DNA of 64,000 bases, from contig JABIBA010000013.1 of assembly GCA_018652955.1 (NCBI GenBank), forward strand, positions 228,253 through 292,252, written 5' to 3'. Position numbers and translations under genes: made by a program. Source of the DNA: Candidatus Peribacter sp. Lineage in GTDB: Bacteria; Patescibacteriota; Gracilibacteria; Peribacterales; Peribacteraceae. Position 1 is the first letter of the stretch. Each line of letters starts with the position of its first letter. Positions 47,645 to 57,089 of this stretch are shown piece by piece. A model generated the notes under the pieces. The model was not told the DNA's origin. It was given only the letters and a program-made list of their open reading frames with translations, and made no database searches.

Positions 47645-50017
47645 TTATTCTCGTAGAAAGTTCGGGAGGATGAGTGGCTCTTTAAGGTCAGGAAGTTTTT
47701 CGATGGTCTCTAAATCTTCTAAGGCAACTTTTCCAATGTAGAGTCTCTGCAATGCGTTTCCGTCATCTACAAACTTTTGTATAGCGAGCAGTCCTCGAAG
47801 ATAGACGACGCTTTTGGTAAACCCACCAGCATCAGACGTATCTCCAAGTCCGCGTTTCATGGCAACGCTTTGTTGTACGGCTTTCTCTGGGGTGCATCCA
47901 AGTTCTGTTTCTAGATAGGTCCTTGTTTGCGCTAGGGAATGCTGCAAACTGTACTCTAGTCCAAGAATATTTTTATAGGGGTTGAAGTGTTTTTCGGAGT
48001 GAGGACTGAGTACTTCTTGTTCATTGTAGATGGCTAGTCCCTCTTGGGTATCAAGATAATCTGCACATCCGCGTCGCAGAATTTGGTAGGATTGGTGACT
48101 TCCATTTTCTGATGTAAGCACGTGTGTTTCTATCTCATGTGCAATCAGAGAGGCTATATCACTTTCACTAAATATGGCATCTTCACGAATGTATACTTTC
48201 TTTCCTCCAACAGTGATGCGAGCAATAAGCTTTGAGCGAACGCTCACCTGCCAATCATGTAACCCGTATGCTTCTAGAGCTTTTTCAAAACGTTCTACTG
48301 CAGTAGCAGCAGTAAGTACTTCTTTTCCTTGGGGTTTTAGGTCACATGCAGCTCTAGTGGCTAATTTCTTTTGTGCGACTGTGATGAGTTTGTTTGTCGG
48401 CTTTCCAAAGAGTGCAACAGATGCTGCAGTGAACTGCTCGTTATGACCACGGGATTGCAGGAGGGTGATACGTTTTAAGAGTTCCTTCCTCTTTTTTTCG
48501 AGAAGAGTTCCAAGAGCGGAGTCATCGGTAATCTTTTCGTGGAGTCGTTCTTTTGCATCATCTAAATCTGAACCAATCTCTGAGTAAGTAAATGTTGGAT
48601 TGTAGAGCTCATCTTCGAGTAGTCGTTCCATTTCTTCCTCGAGGTTTAGTGGCTTGATGTGCTTAAGAAGTAGTAGGTCTTTATCAATTTTACTGAGCAG
48701 GCGATCGAGTGCTCGTACATCAGTCTTTTTTACCATACTTTTCTTTTCTGTTACCTTCATCTTCTTTGTTGGATCGATGAGGAATCCATTCAGATCCCTA
48801 GAACCAATTATCACTCTATGAGATCCCGTCTCTCCTGACTTCACCAGTGTTTGAATCTTCTTACCTCCCAGAGAGAATTTTACGCGATATAACCCCTCTG
48901 TTTCATCGGGTTCTGCTCCGTGCTTTTCTTGCAGCTCATCGATAAGCTTTTTGCTAAATGTCGTACGCTCTTCACCGCTATCGATTGTTGCTACAAGTTC
49001 AAAGGTAGAACCCTCTCCTAATGTAACTTGGATAGATTCCTCTAGTCCGAGTGTTGGCTTTCCATTTTCGAGGTCTGCGTCTTTCTTCTTTGTCTTGCTT
49101 CCAAATAAGTCCTGTCCGATACGTACTCCTTTTTCGGGTGACTCTACTGTAATTCCTTGCACACGATCTAGACGTGCCCTTAGAGGAGCAAGGTTTGCTA
49201 TTTGTACCTGCAAACCAGCTCTTGCATTTACTTCGAGTAGCGCAGGTCCCATCTGTTCATCGATAGCGATATCTACTGCGAGATATCCGATATTGGTAAT
49301 TTGTTGTATCCGAGAACAAATTAACAAGATTTCATCCCAGTAGGGGATGCGGTGGCCTGCTATCTCACCTCCGTGTGGTAGCTCTTCTATGATGTTGCGG
49401 TATTGCACACCATAGGTTGTTTCTCCTTTGGCAATGTCCAAACCTACTCCTATTCCTCCTAGGTGAATATTAGCCTTTCCGTCACTGTCTGCAGTTGGGA
49501 TACGCACCATTGCCATCACAGGTACTAGGTTAAAGACAATGATACGAATGTCAGGCAGTCCTACAGGGCGAAACCGTGCAAAACAGCTATGTGGCTTTAG
49601 GATCTGTTCAAAGAAAGCAGTGTCCATCATTCCTTTTAGAGAAAACTTTCCATCGAGGATATCTTCGATGTGCTCTCTTAACTCTTGGTCTGTAATTGGA
49701 GTTTTTCCATTGCGGAGGAACTCTCCTTTTTTATTACGACCACGCAATACAATAATTCCTTCACCACCAAATCCATGGTTTGGCTTAAGAACACATTCGT
49801 TGGGGAGCTGTGCAAAATCAAATTCCCACACTTGATCACGGTTTTCTATACGCCCGTAGAGCTTGGCTACAGGTATGCCACGTGCAGCGAGATAGGCTTT
49901 TGTTCGTAGTTTGCTATCGGCTAGAGCTGTAGCTTTTTTCGGATTAAACGGCCTGATGTATAGCAGCGTGCGCGCATTTAACCCAAGTACGCCGCGATTG
50001 GAGAAAAAAGGAAACAT
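47645..50017 (-). CDS. ATP-grasp / retropepsin-like / DUF1704 metallopeptidase fusion
   Basis: 790 residues, three modules in one chain. (1) About 10-290: ATP-grasp of the alpha-L-glutamate-ligase-like type (LRTKAYLAARGIPVAKLYG, ECVLKPNHGFGGEGIIVL, PALLEVNARAGLQVQIANL), expected to form amide bonds. (2) About 335-418: retropepsin-like fold of the ATP-dependent zinc protease family (ELVATIDSGEERTTFSKKLI, HRVIIGSRDLNGFLIDPTK) with DSG as the possible catalytic site. (3) About 430-790: DUF1704 with IAHEIETHVLTSENG (HExxxH at 627-632) and the QEGLA motif (658-662). In other bacteria these are separate neighbouring genes. It lies 6 nt downstream of a PKD-7TM protein gene. Role inferred: making and cutting peptide-like conjugates. 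Confidence 0.82.
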   Translation of the reverse strand: MFPFFSNRGVLGLNARTLLYIRPFNPKKATALADSKLRTKAYLAARGIPVAKLYGRIENRDQVWEFDFAQLPNECVLKPNHGFGGEGIIVLRGRNKKGEFLRNGKTPITDQELREHIEDILDGKFSLKGMMDTAFFEQILKPHSCFARFRPVGLPDIRIIVFNLVPVMAMVRIPTADSDGKANIHLGGIGVGLDIAKGETTYGVQYRNIIEELPHGGEIAGHRIPYWDEILLICSRIQQITNIGYLAVDIAIDEQMGPALLEVNARAGLQVQIANLAPLRARLDRVQGITVESPEKGVRIGQDLFGSKTKKKDADLENGKPTLGLEESIQVTLGEGSTFELVATIDSGEERTTFSKKLIDELQEKHGAEPDETEGLYRVKFSLGGKKIQTLVKSGETGSHRVIIGSRDLNGFLIDPTKKMKVTEKKSMVKKTDVRALDRLLSKIDKDLLLLKHIKPLNLEEEMERLLEDELYNPTFTYSEIGSDLDDAKERLHEKITDDSALGTLLEKKRKELLKRITLLQSRGHNEQFTAASVALFGKPTNKLITVAQKKLATRAACDLKPQGKEVLTAATAVERFEKALEAYGLHDWQVSVRSKLIARITVGGKKVYIREDAIFSESDIASLIAHEIETHVLTSENGSHQSYQILRRGCADYLDTQEGLAIYNEQEVLSPHSEKHFNPYKNILGLEYSLQHSLAQTRTYLETELGCTPEKAVQQSVAMKRGLGDTSDAGGFTKSVVYLRGLLAIQKFVDDGNALQRLYIGKVALEDLETIEKLPDLKEPLILPNFLRE

Positions 50018-50023
50018 GAGATT

Positions 50024-51529
50024 CTATTCTTCTTGCAGGTGCTTAAAGACTTCTTGGAATCTAAAGTATTCCACGAGCCGAAGACCTGTCCATTTACCAA
50101 GGAAGACATTGATGACTATCGTAATTAAAATCAGTTCAGGGTACGCAAGGATAAGGGATTGCAAGAATGAAAGTTGAACGATGTAGACACAGAAGAGTGC
50201 AGCCATCACTGTTTCACCAATACCAAAGAGCGCTGCTTTCCAACCTTCCTCTGTTTTTACATTGAGGAAGCTCTCTGCAAGGGTAGACATAATAAGGAGT
50301 ACAAAGATAGTGTCTCCAGAAAGTGTAATATCCTGATACGCTCCAATGCCAAGCAATACGAGTAGCGTTAAGCTCACTACCGTAAGAATAATGGCAACCT
50401 TTGGAATATACAGTAGGCGCCAGCGCTTCATTATTTGTCTGGTCGCATATCCTGTAACAAGGATAAAGACGAGGAACAGAAGTCCTAGCCCCCACCCCAA
50501 AGCCAAGAAGCTTAGAGCAAGGATAGATGGCGTATACAAGCCAAAAGTAGTGATTCCAATGACCTGCTTAAAGAAGGCCAAGATGGTCGCAATAAGCGGC
50601 AACATCAGAAGAAGAATAACTGTCTGAGAAGACACTCCATGTGTCAGCATTGAGTTTACCAGTGACGATAGAATGTTCCACGGTCGAATACCTGTTGTGG
50701 ATTTATCAACAACAAGAAAATCGATATCGCGTTGTGTAAGTTCTACGATAAAGCTGTCGATATCTTCTGCAGACATGAGCGGGTTCACTGCTTCTTTACG
50801 TGTTACTAAAATTTGATGTGGTTGGATAACAGTAAACGGACCACCAGCAGTACGCGCCAATGTGCCGAGTCCACGGTCTGTAATAAGGACGATCGTTTGG
50901 TTGTGAATCGCTTCGAACCTATCAGGGTTTCCTTCGACTGCACGCATGAGTGCTTGTAATCCTTTGACTCCTTCGGTCCAAAGCACAACAGCTTCTGCAC
51001 CGTTGAGTGTCCCACTCTCTTCGCTAAGCATAGCAAAGATAGACTCCTCGACGCCTAAGGGAATTGTAGATTCTTCTGGTTGTAACAATCGCAAATAGAC
51101 TCCCGCTTCTGCGGCAGCTACAAGGTGCAGGTTGAGCTTGTCGAGTGGAATAGAGCTATCTGCAATCAGTACGATTTTCCGATCGTAAACGGTAATAGAT
51201 CTCGTCGTTTCTGTTACCTCTCTTACTCCATCAATAATTGTAGAAATACTGAGTCGCATAGTTACGACACCTGGTTTGTCGGGAGTGAATACCGCTTCTA
51301 CAGATCTACTGATTGGCACAGTGCTTTCTCCTCTATACCAAATGTATTGGGTACTGTTCCCGAGTCCGTGACTTGCAGATGCATCGAGTACGATGGTTCG
51401 CCCTACTGGTACTTCGTCGGGTCCTGTAATAATTGCACTGAGCGGTTCTGCAGTTGGAGCCTCCTGTGCAAATGAGGAGAGGGGAAGTACAAGGAGAAGT
51501 GCTGCTATGGTTAACGTTCTAAATTGCAT
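50024..51529 (-). CDS. PKD-domain and seven-transmembrane protein of amidoligase neighbourhoods
   Basis: 501 residues. Signal peptide about 1-21 (TLTIAALLLVLPLSSFAQ), a PKD-like domain about 30-115 (VGRTIVLDASASHGLGNSTQ, FTPDKPGVVTMRLSI), then an alpha/beta region 116-290 (KIVLIADSSIPLD, GAEAVVLWTEGVKGLQALM), and seven helices from 302 to 478. The 7TM part (GITTFGLYTPSILALSFLALGWGL, RRW-like basic loop then LLYIPKVAIILTVVSL) matches the 7TM domain usually fused to an inactive transglutaminase and encoded next to ATP-grasp and retropepsin genes. No transglutaminase domain is seen here. TACACT stands 8 nt before the ATG. Confidence 0.75.
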   Translation of the reverse strand: MQFRTLTIAALLLVLPLSSFAQEAPTAEPLSAIITGPDEVPVGRTIVLDASASHGLGNSTQYIWYRGESTVPISRSVEAVFTPDKPGVVTMRLSISTIIDGVREVTETTRSITVYDRKIVLIADSSIPLDKLNLHLVAAAEAGVYLRLLQPEESTIPLGVEESIFAMLSEESGTLNGAEAVVLWTEGVKGLQALMRAVEGNPDRFEAIHNQTIVLITDRGLGTLARTAGGPFTVIQPHQILVTRKEAVNPLMSAEDIDSFIVELTQRDIDFLVVDKSTTGIRPWNILSSLVNSMLTHGVSSQTVILLLMLPLIATILAFFKQVIGITTFGLYTPSILALSFLALGWGLGLLFLVFILVTGYATRQIMKRWRLLYIPKVAIILTVVSLTLLVLLGIGAYQDITLSGDTIFVLLIMSTLAESFLNVKTEEGWKAALFGIGETVMAALFCVYIVQLSFLQSLILAYPELILITIVINVFLGKWTGLRLVEYFRFQEVFKHLQEE

Positions 51530-52019: not shown

Positions 52020-53339
52020 ATGCCTCCTCCAGTATCTCCAAGTGGTGCTCCACTTACGCCAGACCAAAAAGCACAAGAGCTTAAAAACCTCTTAGTAAAA
52101 TTGCGTACAGCACCTGCTGCACCAATTAATCCTGCGAGTGCTGAAATTAAGGAGCTGAAGAAAAAGATCGAAGATACTAACCGAGTAGACATTCTTAAGG
52201 CATCTCAAGTTGAACTAGATTCATTGAAAGTTGAGGTTGAGGCGGCAAAGAATAATAAGGATATTATGGATGCTCTCGGTACAGAGAAGGTAAATCTTGA
52301 AAAGATGAATCTTGATATTACGACCCAAATTAATAAGACTAGATCTGCTGCCAGTACTGTTTTACTAACAGACATCAAAGATGATGTTCTACAACTTGGT
52401 AAAGATTCCATTCCAGAAGAGAAAGGAGATGTGATCAGTATGGTTCAAGGACTAATGCTTAAGTTTAATAAGCTTAAGTTGATGTTTGAGAAAATGACTA
52501 CCTTTTCTGCCGCAGGAAAAGCAGAGATTGCTAAGAAAGAGAAACAGCTAGCTGTAGATGAATTCGGCATGCTCGGACCACGTGGATTGCGTGATAAGTT
52601 TAAAAAGAAAGGAGCAGACTATGGTGTGAGTATCCGAAATGGTATTCGTGATAAGACTGCATTTAATAAGTATGTAGAGAAGTTTAAGAAAGGCGACATT
52701 CTGAATATCGATGAGTTTGTTGATCAAGAACTTGCTATTGCATCTCCTCAACTTAATGCTTCTACTGGCGCTCCAAAAGAAACTACCATGTATGGACTGT
52801 TGGCTCTTAAAGGACAAGAGACAAAGCTTGCATCAGCAATGGGTAAAGAAAGAGAATTGATGTATGAAGATGGTCTTGAGAAGTATGGTGTGAAGTTTGA
52901 GAATAATATTCTCACTGTACGAAACCTTGTTGATAGTAAGACGTATAACTACACACTGTCGACAGGTGCAGACGTACCTGCAGCAGCACTAGCGGCTGCT
53001 AAAAAGGCAGGTGCACCGGGAATATCTCCGGATGTCATGGGATTACTTGGTGCTTCTAAAGGAGTGAAATTTACATCCGCAGACATAGAAGACCAAGGAG
53101 ATGGTAAAAACGATAAGGTGATGGGATTTGCGTTCCAAGGTACTGCAGGCCCTATGGGCCTTTCGAAGCATCGTGGAAATGTCTCTCTCGATAACGCTAC
53201 TCTTCGAAGCGTTCTTAAGGAGCTTGGTGCAGGAGATGCAACAGGACTAAAGAAACTCGTTGATCGTAAAATTGTTTCTAAAGGCATATTTGCCAAAATA
53301 AAAGGAGATATTGAATTCAAAATCGAAAAATCTAGCTAA
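52020..53339 (+). CDS. Hypothetical coiled-coil protein, first gene of the giant cluster
   Basis: Unrecognised, 439 residues, soluble. The N-terminus is Pro/Ala-rich (PPPVSPSGAPLTPDQKAQEL), followed by coiled-coil about 35-115 (ASAEIKELKKKIEDTNRVDI, ELDSLKVEVEAAKNN), and a mixed C-terminal region from about 230 (LNIDEFVDQELAIASPQ; ENNILTVRNLVDSKTYNYTL; RKIVSKGIFAKIKGDIEFKI). No signal peptide or membrane helix, so it is probably cytoplasmic. It starts the co-directional run and the next gene follows after 12 nt. No Shine-Dalgarno sequence. Confidence 0.65.
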   Translation: MPPPVSPSGAPLTPDQKAQELKNLLVKLRTAPAAPINPASAEIKELKKKIEDTNRVDILKASQVELDSLKVEVEAAKNNKDIMDALGTEKVNLEKMNLDITTQINKTRSAASTVLLTDIKDDVLQLGKDSIPEEKGDVISMVQGLMLKFNKLKLMFEKMTTFSAAGKAEIAKKEKQLAVDEFGMLGPRGLRDKFKKKGADYGVSIRNGIRDKTAFNKYVEKFKKGDILNIDEFVDQELAIASPQLNASTGAPKETTMYGLLALKGQETKLASAMGKERELMYEDGLEKYGVKFENNILTVRNLVDSKTYNYTLSTGADVPAAALAAAKKAGAPGISPDVMGLLGASKGVKFTSADIEDQGDGKNDKVMGFAFQGTAGPMGLSKHRGNVSLDNATLRSVLKELGAGDATGLKKLVDRKIVSKGIFAKIKGDIEFKIEKSS

Positions 53340-53351
53340 CCCTCTTTTACT

Positions 53352-56300
53352 ATGGCCCCTTCAGCAATTGATCTTCTCAAGAGTAAACTCAAGATAGGGC
53401 TCGCAGTACCTGATGCCACTTTGAAGCATCAGAAATTACTAGATGCTATCAAAGAAGGGACACCAGGATTTGATACACCTGTTCATCGTCAATCTCGAGT
53501 AGATCGTGCTCGGCTTGCTATTCAATTCATGAAACATGATGAGATTCGAACTGCAGGTATCCAAGTTATCGATGAAGCGATTGCTAAAGTGGCAGCGGAT
53601 AAGGCCAAAGCAAATAAAGAGAAATTAACTCCAGGAAAGACAGCTGCAGAGAAAACAGTGATAGATAATAATATTGCGGCACTCGAAGCAGAGAAGCTTG
53701 AATATATTGGAGCACGTAAAGAAGCAGAGGCAGCAGTGCAGGCTGCAAAAGCTGCTGCAGCAAAACCAACGCCAAAAAAACCAGTAACAAAGCCAGGTAT
53801 TGTTGGTACTCTCGCAGGCGTTACTGATGCAGTATTACCGAAAGAGATGTCAGAGAAAATGAGCAAAGAAGCTAAAGCTCTAGCTGCAGTTGTTACAGGG
53901 GCTGCTCTTGTTGCAGGACTTGTGTGGTTGTTTAATCGTGGTAAGGATAAGGCAAAGTCTGCTGGTAAGACATTGTTGATTGCTGGAGGAGTGGTGCTTG
54001 CAAGTATTTTTGGTTTAAAGCTTTTTGCTGATCTTAGGAAATTCGGAAGTATCAATAAAATGATTGATGCTAAATTGAAAGAGCGACAGGCAAAAAAGGA
54101 GCCATGGATAAAGTTCGGACTTACAGAAGATGATTACAAGAAAGCAGACGATATTTATCATGAAGAAGGCGAAGCTGGTAACGATAAAATTCGTGCATTC
54201 TTTGGATTAGCTCCGGGGGCAACCAATATAAAATACGAAGCGTACATGGAATTTATTCGAGGAAAGTACGAAACTGTTGAAAAAAATGGCATTACATATG
54301 CTCGTGCGGAAGTGGCATTACAAAACTACGAAGATAATATTGGCACTGCTGTAAAAGAGTTGGCACGTTGGGTAAAAGATAACTATGTAAAGGTAGCCGT
54401 GGGTACGTACATCGCTTCGCGATTAGGTATTCTTCGTGCAATTCTTTCTGGTGCGGGTACTATTGCATCTAAAGCTGGTCAACTAGCAAATGCCATGCGT
54501 AAGTTTGGATGGAAACATCCTATTATTGCTATTTTTGCTTTGGGAGGAGCTGTTATTGGTATTCGTAAGGCTATTTCAGCCGGAAAAGATGTCATGCTAC
54601 CGGAGAACTTACCAATGTTTTCTACTGCTGTTGCAGCAAAGAAACCTGTATCACATGGCCCGTTGGATGTTTCATTGGCAGGCCCTCTGGATACACTGAG
54701 TAAAAGTGTAGAGGAACTTGGTGTGATAACTGGGGACTTTGCAACATGGGTAGGTACTGAATTTATGGATTTTGTGAATTACATTGATAAAAAGGCACCA
54801 GAATCATTCCGTAATAGTGACCCGGAGATTATCATTAGCAGAAACATGGCATGTATAGATGCTCTTCGTGATTATTTGGATCGCAGAAAAGGGAATGCAC
54901 CCACAGCGAGAAAAAAAGTGAATGCAGGTAAAGGTGCTGACTATACAACTGCTATAGCACTTCTCGATGCATACGAAAGCTCATTTATTTTGCATAGGTG
55001 TGAAAATGTTACTACCAATAAAGAGCCACAAGAAGCATATAAGAAGCTAGAGGGCGCTTTAGCAAAAGTGCAATTACTCGTAACGACAGAAGGGGATGTT
55101 GTGTATTGGCAGCCTGCTGATAAAAGCGAAGTGCGTCGTGCACTCTGCGTACATCCTTCTGTAACGGATAAGGATAAGCTCCTAGAGCTTTCTAAACGGT
55201 TATTTCATGGAGAGGGTGATGATGTATATGTAGTAAATCGTGTTAAAGAAGAATTAGGAAAACAGCTAGGTAAGAATATGGATAAGCTCGAAGGTTTCCC
55301 TTTGGGCAGTAAGGGGTTTGCCATGATAATTGGAAATTTCTTGTACTTTATAGAGTTTGATCTCAGTAAAGGATTTATAGACTGGGAAAATATGAATAAC
55401 TGGGCAAGAGCCCCGTTGAGTATCATGTTCTCAGAAGATGGTAAAGATCGTGATTGGCGAGAGTGGTCGGCAGATGTAGGGATTGGCGTTATGCATACGG
55501 CACTATTTGCATTGAGCGCAGGGACTCTTGGATTGCTAAAGCAGGCAGCTATTGGTGGTGGACCACTTCCAGGAAGAGGTAAGTTTAAAACTCTAAAGAA
55601 GATAGCAGTAAACATCACACCTGGTGTCTCTCATGCGAATGTTATAAAAAATACGTATCGTACATACTTTGATTTTAAGATGATGTATCACTTTCCTATA
55701 CGAGGAAGGGGGTTCAACAATGTTTTCCAAGAAAGTGGATTGCGTCCTGAGTGGATACGTAGCATCGAAAATTCTGGTAACGGGTATTTGGCTAGATGGA
55801 AACTAAGACGCATTGCAAAGAAAGCCAATATTAGAGTAAAAGCTGCACGAACTGCACAGCAATTACGTACTACGTTGCGTAATGGATTTGTTACTCGTTT
55901 AAACTTGTCAAATGCCAATGGACAAATAGGAGCTGATGGGGATTCTATGTACGATAATGTTCGTGATGCTTTTGCGCCAGGTGCGGATGCAGAAACGGAT
56001 ACAGTAGCAGAAGGATTGGAAACAGAAGAAGATAACGCACGCGTTGAAACATATAAACAAATGCTCGATCAAGGAAGGTCTGTGACTGAAATGGTAAAGA
56101 ACGGAGCACACGTAGGAGACTTACTCAAGGCAGATGCAGATCCTGATGAGACACTAAAGGCTGTACAGGGACTTGCTGACGAGGATCTCCGTGCTGAAGG
56201 ACTAGATGCCTTGAAAGCTGCTGGAGTAGATACAACACCAAAACCAGTTGCACCAAAGCCAGCTGCAAAACCAACATTTACCGAGCAGCAAATTAAAGAC

Positions 56301-57089
56301 ACGGTGAAGGCAACAGAGTCAGGAAAACTTAGCCTCGATAAAAAAACACAGATCTATTCTGACTTGATTAACAAGAACAAAATTCCTTATCAAAGCCTTA
56401 TCAAGGCTGGTGCAGATCCAAAAGCTCTCATAAAAGCTGGAGTTAGTCCGGCAGAGGTAGCGCTTCATACGCCGAAGCCAGCACCTGCTAAACCTGCTGC
56501 ATCAAAACCTGCAGCTACTAAACCTGCTGCGAAGCCACCAGCTCCTACTAAGCCTATTCCTGCTAAACCTGCTGCACCAAAACCAGCTTCAACTGCTGCA
56601 CCAAAGATTACTATTGCGCAATTGCAGAAGGAGCGAGGTGCGATAGAGAAGTCTATTACTGAAACAGTAGCAGAAGTGCGCCCTGCTAAAGGGCAAGCTC
56701 GAGCGAAGCTCCTTGCGAAGCTAGAGGCGGATTTCGAGGCACAGGCTAAGAACTTGGAGTCGCAAGTAGCACTGGATCCGAAATTGGATGCTAAGTTAGC
56801 TCCTCGTATCGCAGAGGCACGAGCCATGTCTGGAAAAATGGGTAAGCAATTAGCTTCACTTAAGAGCAGAATGTCTAAAAATGCTGCTTCTCAAAGTCCA
56901 AAAGGCCGTAAAGATAAGGTTTCGTCAAGGCAAAAAGGTACTGGTGATACAAGTGTTTCACCAGGTACGCCTGGAGCTGTGCATGAAAACAGGTCAGGAA
57001 CGGATACTGTGGTAGATCTACAAAACCCAAAAAATCAGGTCGGAAAACGTAAAAAAGGAGGCGGTGCTAACGTAAAGGTGGTTAAGTAA
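53352..57089 (+). CDS. Giant hypothetical membrane protein, 1245 residues
   Basis: Unrecognised. N-terminal soluble helical part; two adjacent hydrophobic helices near 178-225 (VVTGAALVAGLVWLF, LLIAGGVVLASIFGLKLF); a further one near 385-405 (HPIIAIFALGGAVIGIRKAI); another near 710-730 (GVMHTALFALSAGTLGLLK). Between them are large soluble domains. The C-terminal quarter has helical repeats (LIKAGADPKALIKAGVSPAEV), a Pro/Ala/Lys linker at about 1035-1085 (KPAAPKPASTAAPKIT), a coiled coil and a basic Gly/Lys tail (KGRKDKVSSRQKG). No cleavable signal. It may be an inner-membrane scaffold; no enzymatic motif found. Confidence 0.7.
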   Translation: MAPSAIDLLKSKLKIGLAVPDATLKHQKLLDAIKEGTPGFDTPVHRQSRVDRARLAIQFMKHDEIRTAGIQVIDEAIAKVAADKAKANKEKLTPGKTAAEKTVIDNNIAALEAEKLEYIGARKEAEAAVQAAKAAAAKPTPKKPVTKPGIVGTLAGVTDAVLPKEMSEKMSKEAKALAAVVTGAALVAGLVWLFNRGKDKAKSAGKTLLIAGGVVLASIFGLKLFADLRKFGSINKMIDAKLKERQAKKEPWIKFGLTEDDYKKADDIYHEEGEAGNDKIRAFFGLAPGATNIKYEAYMEFIRGKYETVEKNGITYARAEVALQNYEDNIGTAVKELARWVKDNYVKVAVGTYIASRLGILRAILSGAGTIASKAGQLANAMRKFGWKHPIIAIFALGGAVIGIRKAISAGKDVMLPENLPMFSTAVAAKKPVSHGPLDVSLAGPLDTLSKSVEELGVITGDFATWVGTEFMDFVNYIDKKAPESFRNSDPEIIISRNMACIDALRDYLDRRKGNAPTARKKVNAGKGADYTTAIALLDAYESSFILHRCENVTTNKEPQEAYKKLEGALAKVQLLVTTEGDVVYWQPADKSEVRRALCVHPSVTDKDKLLELSKRLFHGEGDDVYVVNRVKEELGKQLGKNMDKLEGFPLGSKGFAMIIGNFLYFIEFDLSKGFIDWENMNNWARAPLSIMFSEDGKDRDWREWSADVGIGVMHTALFALSAGTLGLLKQAAIGGGPLPGRGKFKTLKKIAVNITPGVSHANVIKNTYRTYFDFKMMYHFPIRGRGFNNVFQESGLRPEWIRSIENSGNGYLARWKLRRIAKKANIRVKAARTAQQLRTTLRNGFVTRLNLSNANGQIGADGDSMYDNVRDAFAPGADAETDTVAEGLETEEDNARVETYKQMLDQGRSVTEMVKNGAHVGDLLKADADPDETLKAVQGLADEDLRAEGLDALKAAGVDTTPKPVAPKPAAKPTFTEQQIKDTVKATESGKLSLDKKTQIYSDLINKNKIPYQSLIKAGADPKALIKAGVSPAEVALHTPKPAPAKPAASKPAATKPAAKPPAPTKPIPAKPAAPKPASTAAPKITIAQLQKERGAIEKSITETVAEVRPAKGQARAKLLAKLEADFEAQAKNLESQVALDPKLDAKLAPRIAEARAMSGKMGKQLASLKSRMSKNAASQSPKGRKDKVSSRQKGTGDTSVSPGTPGAVHENRSGTDTVVDLQNPKNQVGKRKKGGGANVKVVK

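Follow-up and report, generated by a model that had tools for sequence, protein, structure and literature searches.

The closest described relatives of the locus analyzed here are the Rlo and Rim systems. In the rloABC operon of Pseudomonas aeruginosa, adjacent genes encode the seven-transmembrane (7TM) protein RloB, the TIGR02291-like ATP-grasp ligase RloC, and RloA, a separate, secreted and active retropepsin of the RloA/RimB family that cuts poly-glutamate; loss of RloB or RloC rescues the loss of RloA, and a substrate of RloA was sought in this species but none was found (PMC12239564). RimK adds glutamate to the C-terminus of ribosomal protein S6 while RimB removes poly-glutamate and stimulates RimK, and in rimABK systems the cytoplasmic retropepsin is coupled to the glutamate-ligase ATP-grasp enzyme or even fused to it, as in the RimBK hybrid, where an active RimB domain lies N-terminal to RimK (PMC11957791). 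Our locus is located in a 64,000-nucleotide stretch of Candidatus Peribacter sp. (contig JABIBA010000013.1; hereafter the window) and consists of two minus-strand genes separated by 6 nucleotides, the upstream one encoding a 7TM protein and the downstream one a fusion of an ATP-grasp ligase, a retropepsin-like domain and a MATCAP (formerly DUF1704) domain. The host belongs to the Patescibacteria, which are tiny, uncultured bacteria.

Several features set this locus apart from the described systems. In contrast to RloA, the fused retropepsin appears to be dead, no MATCAP has been described for the rloABC operon, and the ectodomain of RloB is an inactive transglutaminase, whereas the partner protein in the window has a PKD domain followed by an alpha/beta domain there. 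The tails of gammaproteobacterial RloB proteins (Legionella, Aeromonas) do not end in Glu-Glu (EE), unlike that of the 7TM partner; in the plasmid collection, RloB relatives were found in Aeromonas and Legionella records only. The RimBK hybrid differs in the activity and position of its protease domain, in its target S6, and in having neither a MATCAP domain nor a 7TM partner. The acceptor of ArgX and LysX is the C-terminal glutamate of the carrier protein LysW. These two enzymes (3vpb, 3vpd), of which ArgX was solved with LysW and glutamate, share the RimK-related ATP-grasp fold, but ligate their substrate to LysW in biosynthesis. With human MATCAP/TMCP (PMC10499314; 7z5g) the third domain of the fusion has the HExxxH fold, the EG motif and a KRG.tDTS..G.F.K..VY segment in common. 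The human enzymes trim tubulin tails, with TMCP1 taking off the terminal tyrosine and additionally producing the delta-2 form, and deglutamylation is among the activities of the family (PMC10499314), whereas the module here is bacterial, ligase-fused and without tubulin, its proposed substrate being the tail of a membrane protein. A bacterial function for DUF1704/QEGLA proteins was not found in the open literature, where the studied relatives we encountered were all eukaryotic tubulin-processing enzymes. The parts and their association (Rlo/Rim modules, RimBK hybrids) were already known; no description of the MATCAP fusion, of the Glu-Glu tail or of a protease decaying in place was found in the open literature, a search that left the comparative genomics of amidoligases outside its range.

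Our preferred explanation, to which we assign a probability of about 0.55, is a Rlo/Rim-type module in which trimming has passed from the aspartic protease to a carboxypeptidase, with ligase and carboxypeptidase opposing each other on the EE tail of the 7TM partner. The ATP-grasp domain would ligate at least one amino acid, with glutamate the likeliest, to the cytoplasmic Glu-Glu C-terminus, and the MATCAP domain would act as a metallo-carboxypeptidase stripping residues from this tail, much like human MATCAP/TMCP does on tubulin. The retropepsin, a poly-glutamate remover in relatives of the ancestral type, may persist as a structural link or a ligase-coupling domain, and the state of the tail could tune the membrane protein with its outer PKD and alpha/beta domains. 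The substrate, the amino acid added, the direction of trimming and the physiological role are what we infer from the domains, the retropepsin decay, the tail conservation and the co-occurrence of the two genes observed below.

Domain composition of the fusion protein

Both reading frames and the gap between them were confirmed as originally predicted from the letters of the window, as were the ATP-grasp and DUF1704 calls, the two DUF1704 signatures (HEIETH and QEGLA at residues 627-632 and 658-662) and the upstream protein with signal peptide, PKD domain and 7TM region. Pfam ATPgrasp_ST matched residues 18-287 of the fusion (2e-58), and TIGR02291 aligned over its full length to residues 7-307 (3.9e-74) at 249.5 bits versus a curated cut-off of 314.2, suggesting a domain related to TIGR02291/RloC that is not an equivalog member. 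Its residues K78, E137, D156, R158, R172, N183, D249, E262 and N264 were invariant in 75/75 relatives. Pfam MATCAP (PF08014) matched residues 472-777 (1e-52; 179.8 bits versus a cut-off of 27) and TIGR02421 residues 438-788 (2.5e-57). In the alignment of this domain H627, E628, E630, T631 and H632 as well as E659 and G660 were invariant; among 75 full-length fusions the first histidine of HEIETH never varied and the glutamine of QEGLA was kept in 70. The corresponding EEG motif is the putative third metal ligand in the MATCAP family (PMC10499314). The AlphaFold2 model of the fusion contained three well-folded domains (mean pLDDT 88.7) joined by two short low-confidence linkers (residues 309-318 and 423-431), with a pTM of 0.53 that leaves the relative domain arrangement unsure. 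The best solved folds for this model were human MATCAP (7z5g; E 9e-10, TM-score on the target 0.68, sequence-profile match E 5e-10), RimK (5zct; E 4e-8) and then ArgX/LysX. Besides the fusion, six genomes carried an additional free-standing MATCAP gene (about 350 amino acids).

The fusion recurs widely in related genomes, a point on which the original prediction had called for a survey. All 80 of 80 named loci, with titles mostly of Peregrinibacteria, Peribacteria and Gracilibacteria, aligned to the whole or most of it, and within the family PF08014 matched in 56 of the 74 genomes, mostly in frames of about 790-850 amino acids. An assembly error or frameshift as its origin was rejected, since triple-domain frames of 780-850 amino acids recur in dozens of genomes. 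Two records titled Kiritimatiellales and Nitrospirota (L035, L080) that carry a Patescibacteria-type fusion are probably misnamed or mixed bins.

The segment between the two enzymes gave no Pfam match when taken alone from the window protein, and a sequence search of the Protein Data Bank with the profile of this domain alone gave none either. Its relationship became apparent through two-domain ATP-grasp-retropepsin proteins, which are widespread in the phylum: the profile of the fused domain matched their C-terminal domain in other Patescibacteria (hhalign probability 99.7, E 4e-27), PF05618 scored above its curated cut-off in four of the five such relatives scanned while the fifth, a decayed one, fell below, and the two-domain retropepsin profile in turn matched RloA-type proteases (probability 98.6). 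Direct comparison of the fused domain to RloA was weak; the shared ancestry with RimB/RloA that these matches point to runs via the intact two-domain relatives. Modules that had been described as separate neighbours are therefore often joined, given these two-domain proteins and the published RimB-RimK hybrids (PMC11957791); the 7TM partner does stand as a neighbour. Two of the two-domain proteins (L177, L198) were lengthened to about 860-920 amino acids, and in L177 the part beyond the retropepsin resembles a second ATP-grasp-like region.

The catalytic motif D[ST]GA was intact in 0/99 triple fusions versus 45/56 two-domain relatives. D[ST]G without the alanine remained in 12 of the 99, including DSGE in the window, and the catalytic-Asp position in 75 full-length fusions was occupied by D (24), A (20), N (14), S (10), T (6) or R (1). 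In RimB even the conservative swap D31E of this residue abolishes activity (PMC11957791). The arginines that coordinate poly-glutamate in RloA, R114 and R137 (PMC12239564), had equivalents in 2/71 and 1/71 triple fusions, compared to 37/37 and 36/37 intact retropepsin domains. Taken from its residues, the domain is in all likelihood a pseudo-protease, and given the loss of both the motif and these arginines activity is expected only of the ligase and the carboxypeptidase. The retropepsin-like segment of the original prediction was thus borne out as a homolog and not as a working DSG active site, and its idea that three activities act together in the fusion lost its support with that site. That three active enzymes (ligase, aspartic protease and metallopeptidase) cooperate in one chain, as the DSG and the IIGSRDLNGFLIDP segment kept in the window might suggest, is highly improbable: more than half of the fusions have replaced the catalytic Asp by A, N, S, T or R, the nearest relatives of the window protein read NSG and ASD at the DSG position, and the arginines are lost. 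A cycle of making and removing a glutamate-type modification at the membrane, also part of that prediction, is still the best reading once the retropepsin is left out of its active enzymes. A role of the dead retropepsin as a binder of acidic tails is disfavoured because the poly-glutamate-coordinating arginines are gone.

The 7TM partner and its C-terminal tail

The partner matched 7TM_transglut (PF14402) at residues 293-494 (5e-25). Its PKD domain reached only E 0.13 in Pfam and was recognized through its fold, which matched the ColG PKD domain (2y72) with a TM-score of 0.82, while the RloB profile NF052267 scored 47 bits versus a cut-off of 900, the match being confined to the 7TM part. The C-terminus is predicted to lie on the cytoplasmic side. 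A feature that the original prediction had missed is the end of this protein: Glu-Glu terminated 68/70 linked relatives and 87/91 7TM proteins across the triple-fusion loci in which the 7TM frame was closed, against a background of 5/522 neighbouring conserved genes. The residue preceding EE varied (Q, E, I, T, A, H, S, M, V or D) and the glutamate run ranged from 1 to 4, therefore the constraint is tied to the C-terminus itself. A Shine-Dalgarno origin of the codons was excluded, as EE was still found in 20/20 cases with a gap of at least 40 nucleotides to the following gene, GAGGAG occurred in 3/69 and both Glu codons were used.

The two genes also travel together. BLAST clustering placed the 7TM gene beside the fusion in 70 loci, and a hidden Markov model detected it in 91 of 99 triple-fusion loci, with none on the available stretch in the other eight. 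Across the 74 family genomes 55 had both genes, 18 had neither and one was discordant; the fusion was absent from 18 genomes and the 7TM gene from the same 18 plus one, so the two genes were gained and lost together within the family. In two genomes the 7TM gene was unlinked from the fusion, which lay elsewhere, and still ended in EE. This bears on the proposal that the fusion modifies S6 like RimK and that the 7TM gene is a mere neighbour. RimK is indeed the closest solved ATP-grasp structure, but the joint gain and loss, the EE tail on unlinked 7TM genes, and the S6 tails of the family, which are mostly of the -ISDD..L- type with EE in 0/30 frames (a few of the 30 not being S6), make it very unlikely.

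Strict co-occurrence would also be expected if the module made or recycled a small peptide or a poly-glutamate polymer that is exported or sensed via the 7TM protein, with the EE tail as a docking signal only. Such a role would fit the free poly-glutamate that RimK also makes and RimB stimulates (PMC11957791), as well as the rescue of P. aeruginosa rloA mutants by deletion of rloB or rloC, which agrees with a function of RloB in export or assembly (PMC12239564). However, a docking signal could work without being placed exactly at the C-terminal carboxylate, whereas EE is anchored at the stop codon behind variable residues, and both enzyme families have members that act on Glu-rich protein C-termini. 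We consider this explanation unlikely and retain modification of the tail itself as the preferred one.

Retropepsin state, MATCAP and the tail across Patescibacteria

The same three features were compared over a set of 80 further Patescibacteria loci, with MATCAP counted anywhere in the genome. Where the retropepsin was intact, EE tails were found in 0/45 and MATCAP in 11/45, compared to 22/29 and 28/29 where it was broken (Fisher p 4e-13 for EE and 2e-10 for MATCAP, values that ignore kinship). In an ATP-grasp domain tree with 98 rows, at least three separate clades show the combination of broken retropepsin, MATCAP and EE. The first is the main clade of triple fusions; the second comprises five loci in which MATCAP is encoded by a gene of its own and Asp has changed to Asn; the third consists of L214 and L222, with a single E and an EE tail, respectively. 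L207 (DTGE) represents a fourth, partial case. The link between retropepsin loss, MATCAP and the EE tail is strong, not proven causal.

Several points weigh against modification of the 7TM tail by the fusion. The independent-pairs test gave two to four informative pairs, each pointing the expected way, with a median p of 0.25-0.5, which is not significant because there were too few independent events. Some loci combine a linked MATCAP with an intact retropepsin and lack the EE tail, the two-domain relatives also need a substrate yet their 7TM tails are not EE, and the remaining 4/91 tails at triple-fusion loci end in a single E. The matches to TIGR02291 and TIGR02421 fall below their curated cut-offs, and ligation and trimming by the fusion are predictions from sequence and fold.

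If correct, the proposal offers a concrete candidate substrate for Rlo-type ATP-grasp/retropepsin/7TM systems, namely the C-terminus of the 7TM partner, would represent a natural case of enzyme replacement, with a MATCAP carboxypeptidase stepping in while an aspartic protease decays in place, and places bacterial DUF1704/QEGLA proteins in a possible biological context. TTL belongs to the ATP-grasp superfamily. As a tentative and rather doubtful extension, an ATP-grasp ligase and MATCAP in one polypeptide might write and erase residues on the Glu-Glu end of a membrane protein. Bacteria would then run a reversible code at a protein C-terminus that resembles the tyrosination cycle of tubulin, and such a module could be a prokaryotic source of the eukaryotic MATCAP enzymes.

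Feature coordinates and further observations

Table 1. Positions of the two genes and their domains and motifs in the window.
Feature	Residues	Position	Strand	Basis
Triple-domain fusion gene, 790 aa (ATP-grasp, pseudo-retropepsin, MATCAP/DUF1704)		47645..50017	-	Open reading frame, profile matches, recurrence, AlphaFold2
ATP-grasp ligase domain	18-306	49100..49966	-	Pfam, TIGR02291, fold match to RimK 5zct and ArgX 3vpb
Probable pseudo-retropepsin domain	320-420	48758..49060	-	Profile-profile comparison; active site not conserved
DSG, relic of catalytic motif (Ala of D[ST]GA to Glu)	346-348	48974..48982	-	Alignment
MATCAP/DUF1704 domain, predicted metallo-carboxypeptidase	438-788	47654..48706	-	Profiles, fold match to 7z5g
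HEIETH metal-binding/catalytic motif	627-632	48122..48139	-	Conservation in alignment
QEGLA motif, putative third metal ligand E659	658-662	48032..48046	-	Conservation; EEG motif in PMC10499314
Partner gene, 501 aa (signal peptide, PKD, alpha/beta domain, 7TM_transglut)		50024..51529	-	Open reading frame, profile match, predicted secondary structure
Extracytoplasmic PKD domain	33-115	51185..51433	-	Foldseek 2y72, TM-score 0.82
Extracytoplasmic alpha/beta domain (inactive transglutaminase domain there in RloB)	116-285	50675..51184	-	Predicted secondary structure, alignment
7TM region, C-terminus predicted cytoplasmic	300-480	50090..50632	-	PF14402, hydropathy, positive-inside loop
C-terminal Glu-Glu tail, proposed acceptor/trim site	500-501	50027..50032	-	EE in 68/70 and 87/91 linked relatives

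Outside the two genes, the window encodes a 439-amino-acid protein without Pfam match on the plus strand (52020-53339), directly before a 1245-amino-acid protein (53352-57089). In several Peribacteria loci (six, including L035) telomere-like GGTTAGGG / GGGCTAGGG arrays were located between the 7TM and fusion genes, possibly representing a dispersed intergenic repeat.

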